From Bryum argenteum (Eukaryota > Streptophyta > Bryopsida > Bryales > Bryaceae): DNA of 64,000 nucleotides. How positions within the stretch are numbered: position 1 is the stretch's first letter; every line of letters begins with the position of its first letter. Of this stretch, positions 8,078-59,500 are shown in pieces. The stretch lies in NCBI GenBank assembly GCA_037043015.1, contig CM073324.1, positions 551,413 to 615,412 on the forward strand, given 5' to 3'. The position numbers and the translations under genes were made by a program. The notes beneath the pieces were generated by a model, which did not search any database, was not told the origin of the DNA, and saw only the letters and a list, made by a program, of their open reading frames with translations.

Positions 8078-9013
8078 TTAACCCCTAAAAATCCAGGAAA
8101 GCCGATTCGGTTTTCTGAGATTTCGGGCAGCTCATTTTAAGCATTTAAACTGATATTTTTGCCTAAGATTTTTATTGGGTGCTCCACATGCAGTAATGTG
8201 TATGTGGTAAAATTTTCAAAGTCAAATTTTAATTTTATAACCTTCATCTAGAAATTTTAGGTTTCAAGTCCAAATCGGGCAGTTTAAAATAATTTTTTTT
8301 AATTTTTTTTTTTTTAGAAATATGTTCATTACCAAATTACTATTCAAATTCCAATGTGTCCGAAGTCAAAAAGTTTACCAATTTTACAAGGGCAGCCTCC
8401 AAAACTTTCAAAAACAATCTTCACAATTTCTAGTAATTTTACAATTTTTTCTTTCAAAAATTGCCAAAATTCGAGATTTTGGATTTTTTCCAAGATTTTT
8501 TTTTTCAAAATTCACATTATCATAAATGCACCTTCTCACCGTCGAGATTTTTCTCAAACTAAATATATCATACGTGGTGCTTGTTTTACTATATGGTTGT
8601 TTTTAGACCTTCTTTCATAAAATATTTTACATTAAGGTCAAAAAGTGGAATTGGTCTCTAAAATTTTGCATGAGCATAACCAACTTGAATACCTACATGA
8701 AAAAAAATGAGGGAAAAATATTTGGAATAACAATCATCAAGTTGCCCTTGGCACCATTTAGACAATGCCTCTCACGCAGTGGCAAAAAAAAAGTGTTGGT
8801 CAAACTTTGATTGTTATGATCTCACAAATGAAAAACATCCAACGGTTGAAATTTTGACCAGTCCTTTGTATACAAGTTAGGTACAAGATCTTACGGTTCA
8901 AAGTCTAAAACCAGAAAAAAAAGTTTCTCCATTTCCCCATCTCCCAACGAAGGTGAAAAATGGCAGTTTTTGGTTCTGGAGGTCGAGGAAACCCCTGGAT
9001 TTTTAGGGGTTAA
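8078..9013. mobile_element. TTAA-bounded non-autonomous element, family A (piggyBac-like)
   Basis: 936 bases including a TTAA at each end. The left end TTAACCCCTAAAAATCCAGG is the exact reverse complement of the right end. TTAA duplication plus ends starting CCC is the known hallmark of piggyBac transposition; assignment by ends alone is inference. The inside is AT-rich with homopolymer runs and no transposase. The frames at 8322-8620 are low-complexity Phe/Lys/Gln text. It carries the shared module (GATCTCACAAATG then GATCTTACGGTT) at about 8802-8905. The perfect 20-base ends suggest a fairly recent insertion. Confidence 0.85.
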
Positions 9014-9129
9014 ATCTCTGGTAGGAGGTGGTCGTAGGTTTTAAGCTTTGAAGACCTTTTTGTGTTCCATTGGAACCTCATGCGATTGTTAAGATTTGTA
9101 GTTACCATATAACAACATTGCAGAGGTCC

Positions 9130-56500: not shown

Positions 56501-59500
56501 TATGATCTGCTCGGTAAAACATGCAGCACGGTTTGCTATAGTATTGCAAGGCAGTTTCTTTCAACCAAGAATATTATTGCATGATCCTTTTAGTACTGAT
56601 ATGCTTCAAGGACAAAGTTCAACAACTTTTTAGTTGTGAACTTTTTAATTGAGGTACATTTAGTAAGAGTTGGTTACGATGGTCCACACGAAGTTATAAT
56701 TATTTACTCTGGTGTCCCCTTTCAAGATTATCTGTTGTTTAATCCATTTTGTTGTAGTAAAATTTCTAGCAATCCAAATTCAAGATACTGTGAAGATACA
56801 GCATGCATTTTGGTGTAAGAGGTTTAATTTCGGTCTCTAATTTCTTTGTATGGCTTGGGCATGTTTTTAATACTGCAAGGCCAGTACTTGGGTCAATAAA
56901 TTTTCTAAGTGTTTTTCTTTTTTCTTTTTTTCCTTAATTTTAATTTTAATATATTATAGTACAAGGGTTTTTTTTTGAGATGAAGATAAAATAACTTTCT
57001 AGATGTACATTTTATGATCAGAATACTTTGATGAGGTAGTAGCATTTCACACCAAAGTCAGGAATGATGAAATTTGTGATGATTCTTCAACTTTATTACA
57101 ATCTTACTTAATCTGTTTGGCAATATGAATCCAAATTTGATTTGCATCATTCACAATAAGTCTATACAAGAATGTACGGTTAAGTTTTGAGTATCTTATT
57201 TACATTGGCAATATTGACATGCTACAAGCAATGACATTTTCATATAAAAGAACTCAGGGATATTAGCAATATTTGAATAATTTATATCAAGATGCTATTA
57301 GGTAGTGGTACCAATATAACTTGGATATACTTGAATATTTAGTTGGAATTGAAACTAATCAATCCCAAATGTACACATTTGTATAGGTTGCAAATCTAAT
57401 CCAAGTATGTGTTTACATTCACCAATCAGTAGAAAGAAAATCAAAAGAGTTTTATGAGGAACTGAGAAGATTCAATTATGTAACACCAACTAGTTACTTG
57501 GAGCTGCTAATGTCATTCATTAAGTTATTGACAGAGAAGCGAGATGACCTTGAAGGATTGAAAGGAAGACTATCTGTTGGACTGGACAAACTACTAAGCA
57601 CAGCAGATGAAGTTGCCGTCATGCAAGAAGAACTAGTTTCCTTACAACCTATTTTAGTTACAACAGCAAAAGAAGCTGACGATATGATGGCTGCTATTGC
57701 CATTGACCAAGCTGATGCAGCAGTTACAAAAGAGCAAGTATATACGAATACCTTAACCCCTAAATTTCCTTGTTGCAAAACGGTCTAAGCCACAAAATTT
57801 GACCTTCCTTTAGATTAAGCTCAAAATATTTCAATCTAAGCATTATTTAAAAGATTTAACCGTAAGATCTCAAAGTTCACTTGACATTCTTCTCACATAC
57901 CAAATTCGAACCGTTCATTCTTCCTCATTTGTGAGATTATAATGGTCAAAGCTGGCTGAATTTTTCTCCTGCGGGAACCTCCAAAACCCGTTTCGGGTTT
58001 TAAGGAAAGTTAGGGGTTAAAATGGAATTTCTAAGTTTGAATTTAAATAATGCACAATCAAGATGAACAAAATATTTCAATAATCTCAATTTCATATATT
58101 TGTAAACGTATATAATTGATGTTTAATATTTTTATTTTTATTTTTTCATATTGTTAAGGTTGTTTTGTGTTTATTTTTAGTATTTTGAGTCTACAAACTT
58201 AAGGAATCTTATTCAGATATTCCAAGGTTTTAAGACATAGTTTGATGGTTGCAAATTTGTGTTATGATGACACTACTACCATTTCTGATGAATTTATTCA
58301 AATTTTAACATATACAAAAACCAAAGTCTTAGAACACAACTTTTGTTGTGAACCATGTCTTCATAATTTTGTAGATTGCATTCTGAATCAAAACAAGTTC
58401 ACAACTCTTTGGAGTTTTAAATTTTAGATTTATTATTACAAAGGAGAATATGATTAGAAAAATTAACTGGTCAATATAGCCAATTTGAGTAAATGATTGG
58501 TTTGCAACTTATCACAAAAGACATTCAATCCAAAAACATCCTAACTTATTTTTAAGTCAAAAAGACACAATTTCAAAATGAGTGTCAAAGATGGAAATGA
58601 TGTACGTAGATCTTAATCGTACAATCTTGTAATAGACTTATTGTAGGTCATGTGGGTCAATTCTTGAACCATGAGGCCTCATGGATTGCAAGATCATAAC
58701 GCATGAGTATTTCAATAAATTATCAAAAAAAGTACGTCATAGCTACAATCACCCACTTTGACATATGTTCTTTCATTATGAGGTTTTTGACATATTTTCT
58801 CTCATTTTGAGGGTAAAAGGAATTGCCTTCAAAATGATTATAAAAATGTAAAAATCCTCGTGACTTTTATAATTGCTTGTTGAATATTATGATTATTTTC
58901 ATGTGAAAAATAAAAAATAGGTTGGAAAACAAGAAGCAGCTGCTAAAAAAATGGCTGCCTGTGCGAAAGCAATAGCCGATAGTGCTCAAGCAGAGCTTGA
59001 TGTTGCACTTCCTGCACTTGATGCAGCTTTATCGTCTCTAAAAAGTCTTACACGAAATGATATTGTAGAAGTAAAATCCCTTCGCAATCCTCCACAAGGA
59101 GTGAAGATGGTGATGGAAGCTACATGTATCATGTTTAATTTGGCTCCCAAGATGGTCAATGATCCAAATAAGGTTTTTATGCTCAAACTCTTTTCATTTG
59201 ATTTTTGAAATATGCCATAATTCAACTAAATCTAGACTCTTCAAAATAATTGGAATGATTTTGAGTTTTTGGATTTTATGAAATGGCTATTATGTTGATC
59301 AATAATTTATATAGATAGTATCTTCATATTCTTGAGGAATCTTAGAATGTGTCGCTCCTAATCCAAAAGTAGTGTATATTGATTGTAGAATGTATATGAT
59401 TCCAAGTTATATTTCAAAGTATCTTCTAAATGATATGTGTTAGGTTAACAAAGTGCAAAAATTATAATCATTTTCATAATATTATTGGTCCTTAAACAAC

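Follow-up and report, generated by a model that had tools for sequence, protein, structure and literature searches.

Miniature piggyBac transposons and their probable transposase sources in a moss nuclear genome

Introduction

The piggyBac superfamily, of which the insect piggyBac (6x67/6x68) and the bat piggyBat (9c0f) have solved structures, is typical of animals and is known from oomycetes as well. It is marked by TTAA duplication, CCC ends, a DDD nuclease domain (PF13843, DDE_Tnp_1_7) whose catalytic aspartate triad is D268/D346/D447 in T. ni numbering, and a C-terminal Cys/His motif; swarms of miniature inverted-repeat transposable elements (MITEs) arising by internal deletion also occur in animal piggyBac. 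The same features are found in the elements described here, which lie in a 64-kb stretch of DNA (hereafter, the window) from a plant that, as far as one gene can tell, is a moss. We regard these elements as non-autonomous piggyBac transposons of a moss nuclear genome, mobilised by the genome's own piggyBac transposases, a reading to which we assign a probability of roughly 0.96.

The MITEs described in plants (Tourist, Stowaway, Mutator, hAT and CACTA types) resemble the moss elements in being short, high-copy, non-autonomous, deletion-derived and, in some cases, intronic, whereas the moss elements differ from them by the TTAA duplication and the piggyBac enzyme. The first-pass annotation of the window held that piggyBac is not usual in land-plant repeat sets. 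A MITE survey of 207 plant genomes, four bryophytes included, states that the MITEs of plants belong primarily to five superfamilies, piggyBac not being among them (PMC12550479); however, other works count against an absence of the superfamily from plants, since PiggyBac is named, without detail, among the angiosperm MITE superfamilies (PMC10004981), is named also among those of plant DNA elements (PMC10794571), and appears in a fern repeat table with 1,230 copies that add up to 122 kb (PMC6890710). A further work records piggyBac in red algae/photosynthetic eukaryotes (PMC12732532). Compared with such red-algal and occasional plant or algal cases, which belong to the same superfamily, the moss case concerns a land plant, thousands of element ends and apparently recent movement. 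No report of piggyBac from a moss was found in the titles and abstract openings listed for the literature searched, and other papers, including the main review of the superfamily, could contain one; a candidate report (PMC10619864) was rejected, its text holding the string "piggybac" twice and the instance displayed reading "piggybacking". With the insect enzyme, piggyBac serves as a genome-engineering tool in plants (PMC12713537); a lineage native to plants that has moved recently would supply transposases adapted to plants together with natural minimal substrates, such as the 80-bp element described below.

Results and Discussion

The window lies on contig C4 of an assembly of 258.8 Mb in 25 contigs (N50 28.7 Mb), eleven of which are large, the last of these measuring 7 Mb. 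Seven TTAA-bounded, CCC-ended elements had been annotated in it, and all seven are present at the coordinates given, with inverted ends. By mutual comparison they form five families, in agreement with the proposal of at least five non-autonomous ones: a 936-bp family (8078..9013, with TTAACCCCTAAAAATCCAGG at both ends), a family of about 448 bp (10716..11163), a 268-bp family (20280..20547 and 57753..58020, both on the plus strand), an 80-bp family (21977..22057, an eroded copy of 81 bp, and 46401..46479, 79 bp long, both on the plus strand) and a 979-bp family (52740..53718). Their interiors, which had been described as unrelated, are not all so: within the two families represented twice, the copies share 93% (20280/57753) and 84% (21977/46401) identity. 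The erosion noted for two elements is confirmed, the left end of 10716 reading TTAATCCC and the right end of 21977 TTTACCC. Some copies had been overlooked, namely an eroded third member of the 268-bp family on the minus strand (19205..19446, sharing 87-88% with both of the annotated ones), a 5' fragment of the 979-bp family on the plus strand (52145..52300, 79% identity) and a sixth family, of 370 bp, with one copy at 29948..30317 (plus strand, 82-83% to the genomic copies L128/L129) and an eroded one at 17385..17721 (minus strand, 77-85% to the same two). Dinucleotide content predicts about 0.06 occurrences of the end word TTAACCCCTAA in the window, both strands together, and 10 are present.

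The transposase genes that the first-pass annotation had expected are present in the same genome. When the genome was searched in six frames with Pfam PF13843, 776 candidates came up, 116 of which were scored, so that there are at least 116 domains; all 116 lie above the curated cut-off, 93 of them have no stop inside the domain, and matches occur on all 11 large contigs, compared with none in any of 14 control genomes. Five of the proteins, measuring 672-932 aa from the first Met, were re-scanned against PF13843 and gave E-values of 2e-77 to 3e-78, whereas the Pfam zinc-ribbon PF13842 passed the E threshold of 0.001 in none of the five. When a profile was compared with solved structures, it matched piggyBac 6x67 (E 6.9e-55), piggyBat 9c0f (E 7.6e-61) and no other chain, and a single transposase protein likewise found piggyBac and piggyBat. 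In an alignment of 14 copies, picked from 30 fetched loci for frames open to the C-terminus, a selection that favours intact copies, D214, D293 and D405 are invariant in 14/14 and lie in stretches aligned to the solved chains; equally invariant are C507, C510, C518, C521, C526, C530 and H535, which form a CxxC...CxxC...C...C...H motif aligning to the C-terminus of piggyBat. The moss transposases are longer than the solved chains (594 and 578 aa) owing to an N-terminal extension. In three of them (L021, L023 and L030) a long N-terminal part shows no Pfam match, and the DDE domain starts at residue 376, 420 and 439, respectively. Among 11 pairs of related copies, the ratio of nonsynonymous to synonymous divergence (dN/dS) is 0.08-0.43 in nine, with the highest values in the closest pairs, while the other two pairs are saturated; being well below 1, it shows that the transposase genes have been under selection for function.

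Four transposase loci could be traced to candidate ends on both sides, and three of them yield complete elements with TTAACCC ends like those of the MITEs. Two belong to one group (A): L020x (4,940 bp, carrying a stop) and L030x (5,712 bp, with an open frame of 932 aa). The third, L002x (group B, 5,199 bp), has perfect 17-bp terminal inverted repeats (TIRs) and an 886-aa open reading frame (ORF); an internal TTAACCCCAAATTCC motif had been considered as one end of the L001/L002/L005 elements and was abandoned when a search with the end word, together with the neighbouring stretch, gave L002x with its matching TIRs. For L023, no complete element was found within the fetched stretch.

The MITEs share ends and subterminal stretches with these elements. 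Both 17-bp ends of the 936-bp element at 8078 equal the 3' end of L020x, with which it also shares 279 subterminal bp at 77%; the opening 159 bp of this MITE are 67% identical to the 5' end of L020x. The 268-bp family has ends and subterminal stretches common to L020x and L030x (72-90% over the longer matches). The 80-bp family matches one L002x end over 34 bp (82%), and the two 370-bp copies L128/L129 match both L002x ends (86-94% over 34-42 bp). Such an anatomy is that of internal-deletion MITEs, and by these matches the 936- and 268-bp families look like derivatives of group-A elements (L020/L030 type), and the 370- and 80-bp families like derivatives of group-B elements (L002 type).

The claim that TTAA is a duplicated target was examined on 62 fetched copies of three families, all from among the highest-ranking hits, and 59 of them (27/30, 20/20 and 12/12 by family) have TTAA on both sides; where shown, their flanks differ. 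For each of two nested insertions an empty counterpart exists that carries TTAA only once, from which it follows that TTAA is a duplicated target. At L052, a copy of the 936-bp family is interrupted by a 268-bp element, and the window's own 936-bp element provides the uninterrupted site (8572..8695, plus strand), where one TTAA is flanked left and right by 60 bases nearly identical in the two copies. The second case is L107, in which a 936-bp element lies inside a repeat resembling the 979-bp family, the uninterrupted site with one TTAA being found in L039. As a separate observation, six of the 30 copies of the 268-bp family (L039, L041, L044, L046, L049 and L050) have GGG or CCC directly across the TTAA, forming GGGGTTAACCCC-like junctions, whose sequence suggests that existing element ends may serve as insertion targets.

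The ends number in the thousands. Genome-wide, TTAACCCCTAA occurs 8,758 + 8,938 = 17,696 times against 160 + 157 = 317 for the reversed word, and TTAACCCTTAAACG 2,991 + 2,954 = 5,945 times against 1 + 3 = 4. At two ends each, the number of elements would be on the order of ten thousand, a rough figure in which eroded ends are missed and single ends counted. All 40 scored copies of the 936-bp family, the window's included (the best 40 of 4,120 candidates), are 99-100% identical, and two of the 12 top copies fetched (L104 and L105) are byte-identical to the window copy while having different flanks. Because byte-identical copies stand at other sites, this family looks to have moved very recently. 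Identity is 94-98% for the remaining scored 268-bp copies, 95-97% for a further 39 full or nearly full scored copies of the 979-bp family, and 90-93%, relative to the window copy, for the scored 80-bp ones; among 20 of the latter that were fetched, nine are identical to the majority sequence, two more, in opposite orientation, having been left out of the comparison. The earlier statement that an active transposase exists or existed is strengthened by the byte-identical copies at different sites and by the dN/dS values, with transposition itself being deduced and not witnessed.

On these grounds, it is possible to outline how the elements may be mobilised. Elements of about 5-6 kb in this genome would code for several piggyBac transposase lineages, with a DDD nuclease and a C-terminal Cys/His motif; these enzymes would recognise TTAACCC(C/T)TAA ends, excise the element and insert it at TTAA, thereby duplicating this tetranucleotide, and four MITE families would have arisen by internal deletion of group-A and group-B elements. 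We infer expression of the transposases, with the MITEs as their substrates in trans; excision would presumably be seamless, restoring one TTAA.

Several points weigh against this interpretation. Stops are contained in 23 of the 116 scored transposase domains, and L020x is among the stop carriers. TTAA is missing from one end in three of the 62 fetched copies, a one-base difference within the TTAA is seen in three more relatives of the L107/L039 host repeat, and both empty sites are paralogous, not orthologous empty alleles from a relative or a second haplotype. Only four transposase loci were traced to candidate ends on both sides, and the fourth element, L021x (5,957 bp), is tentative, its ends matching poorly and its boundaries being uncertain. 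The left end of the 979-bp family differs at two of 14 positions from group A and group B alike, which leaves its source transposase unassigned, and the 10716 element and a candidate 499-bp element (see below) were matched to no transposase group. 

A control on the window itself gave a mixed result. When tetranucleotide pairs 60-1500 bp apart with at least 8/10 inverted bases were counted, the 20 inverted TTAA pairs were unremarkable compared with AATT (18) and TTTT/TATA/ATAT (95-549), but five of the 20 (8078, 20280, 46401, 52740 and 57753) start with CC, versus one AATT pair and none for nine other tetranucleotides.

Other explanations were also considered. A different superfamily that favours TTAA, such as Tc1/mariner with its TA or PIF/Harbinger with a 3-bp target site duplication (TSD), would be compatible with the empty sites taken alone, in the former case through a TA duplication inside a preferred TTAA. 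However, the retention of the whole TTAA on both sides in 59/62 copies speaks against it, a 3-bp TSD would render the TIRs asymmetric, and elements with these very TTAACCC ends encode PF13843 (no search was aimed at mariner/Harbinger transposases); this explanation is already contradicted, and we consider it highly improbable. Contamination of the assembly by an insect, a mite or an oomycete is suggested by the general distribution of piggyBac, typical of animals and found also in oomycetes, and by the fact that mosses harbour small animals. This would be harder still to credit, given that transposase matches lie on every one of the 11 large contigs, that the elements at 46401 and 52740 sit between consecutive exons of a dynein heavy chain gene, and that the moss transposases fall outside all the named animal and oomycete sequences of the tree described below.

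The families might also be fossils, amplified long ago and now immobile. Some families are older, the other 10716 copies standing at 75-82%, and the 80- and 370-bp copies of the window being 7-10% and 17% away from others, respectively; the 23 domains with stops fit this idea as well. It is, nonetheless, unlikely in view of the 99-100% identity throughout the scored 936-bp copies (40/40) and the two of 12 that are byte-identical in different flanks, of the nine of 20 80-bp copies equal to the majority sequence, and of the low synonymous divergence (dS) between some transposase copies (0.024 for L022/L028 and 0.014 for L019/L026).

The elements are not evenly distributed. C1, which at 44.1 Mb is the largest contig and makes up 17.0% of the genome, has 94 of the 5,945 TTAACCCTTAAACG sites against about 1,012 expected by length, that is, about one eleventh, whereas it holds 68 of the 317 control words, above the 54 expected (Fisher p about 5e-47 versus TTAACCCTTAAACG). 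For TTAACCCCTAA, 100 listed places covering the first 7.45 Mb of C1 give 13 per Mb versus 68 per Mb in the genome, an approximately five-fold deficit. C1 also holds five of the 116 transposase matches and two of the 200 top MITE rows, which include the window's own copies. Three 6-kb samples of C1 contain no N, and no Pfam match was found in the seven ORFs given. In another moss, the largest, repeat-rich chromosome (Chr01) is the putative sex chromosome (PMC10619864), and one possibility, unproven, is that C1 is a U or V sex chromosome. The deficit could come from insertion preference, from purging or from later filling by other repeats.

As to the place of the moss transposases in the superfamily, a protein search with one transposase gave 42 matches and another with the 14-sequence profile gave 129, the best 120 of the 129 being examined. 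The organisms among the labelled matches are fish, insects, crustaceans, a mussel and Phytophthora, with one cluster also ferret-labelled; no plant name appears among the matches listed, most of which show no organism. A maximum-likelihood tree was built by a quick method from 130 rows, with unlabelled proteins shorter than 420 aa left out; it is limited by this method and by long branches. All 14 moss transposases fall into one fully supported group of 51, together with 37 environmental proteins without an organism name, and form four sublineages interleaved with them. The 12 labelled animal and oomycete rows and the named rows P0022, P0023, P0036 and P0040 are all outside this group. It is a natural guess that the hosts of the environmental proteins are other mosses. 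In comparison with the described superfamily, the moss elements differ by host, by transposases that group separately from the animal and oomycete proteins bearing a name, and by the end consensus TTAACCC(C/T)TAA.

Each feature open to examination marks the elements as piggyBac. The superfamily is a known one, and what makes the case interesting is its host, together with the number of copies, their recent movement, the diversity of transposases and the chromosome bias. We tentatively suggest, at somewhat less than even odds, that mosses host their own anciently diversified and still-moving piggyBac branch, with several autonomous lineages and elements numbering in the order of ten thousand per genome, largely kept from or purged from one chromosome, perhaps the non-recombining U/V sex chromosome. 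A moss piggyBac would bring a further superfamily into the annotation of plant MITEs, and would provide a haploid-dominant host for studying the defence against TTAA transposons and the bias against one chromosome.

Other features of the window

The boundaries of some elements are less clear. The right end of the eroded element at 10716..11163, TTAACCCCTAAAGTTGAC, is that of a many-copy family; its left boundary is doubtful because the other copies start later, 39 other scored copies aligning from base 59 at the earliest and mostly from base 78-87 onward, and no TTAACCC-type left end was found in eight stretches upstream of such copies. A candidate element of 499 bp (36939..37437) has the ends TTAACCCTAGAGC and TTAACCCTTAAATGCC and is judged from these. 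The TTAACCC/GGGTTAA pair at 33789/34914 was rejected as an element and attributed to chance, the scored copies outside the window spanning only its last 270 bases or so. These correspond to a repeat of about 250-270 bp ending in GGGTTAA (34649-34914), with a left end without TTAACCC and 40 copies scored of 296 candidates in the genome, two of the 40 being on C1.

The genes of the window include a dynein heavy chain on the plus strand and IFRD. The latter's best named protein matches are from Ceratodon purpureus (63%), a Physcomitrium-labelled entry (62%), a liverwort (41%) and a fern (35%), an unnamed protein reaching 90%; by its nearest named relatives, the genome, earlier called streptophyte-looking, would be that of a moss. 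The 979-bp element at 52740 lies between dynein exons, and the 80-bp one at 46401 within a dynein intron. The latter forms a near-complete hairpin, the fold of this family having z-scores of -5.4 (L086) and -3.7 (window copy), and such a very small TTAA element could feed small-RNA pathways.

Searches of Rfam and for tRNAs and plasmids gave no matches. No telomere repeat was found in eleven stretches from large-contig ends and six from the starts of small contigs, some of these stretches being N at the outset; CCCTAAA in the element ends resembles the plant telomere unit, which we take to be a coincidence. The window also holds, at 28102-29357, the 3' fragment of a Ty3-type retroelement (SH3/chromo domain, 28399-28998) between 260-nt inverted arms that are 93% complementary, in a fold-back arrangement, and, at 60238-60373, an AT dinucleotide tract of about 130 bp.

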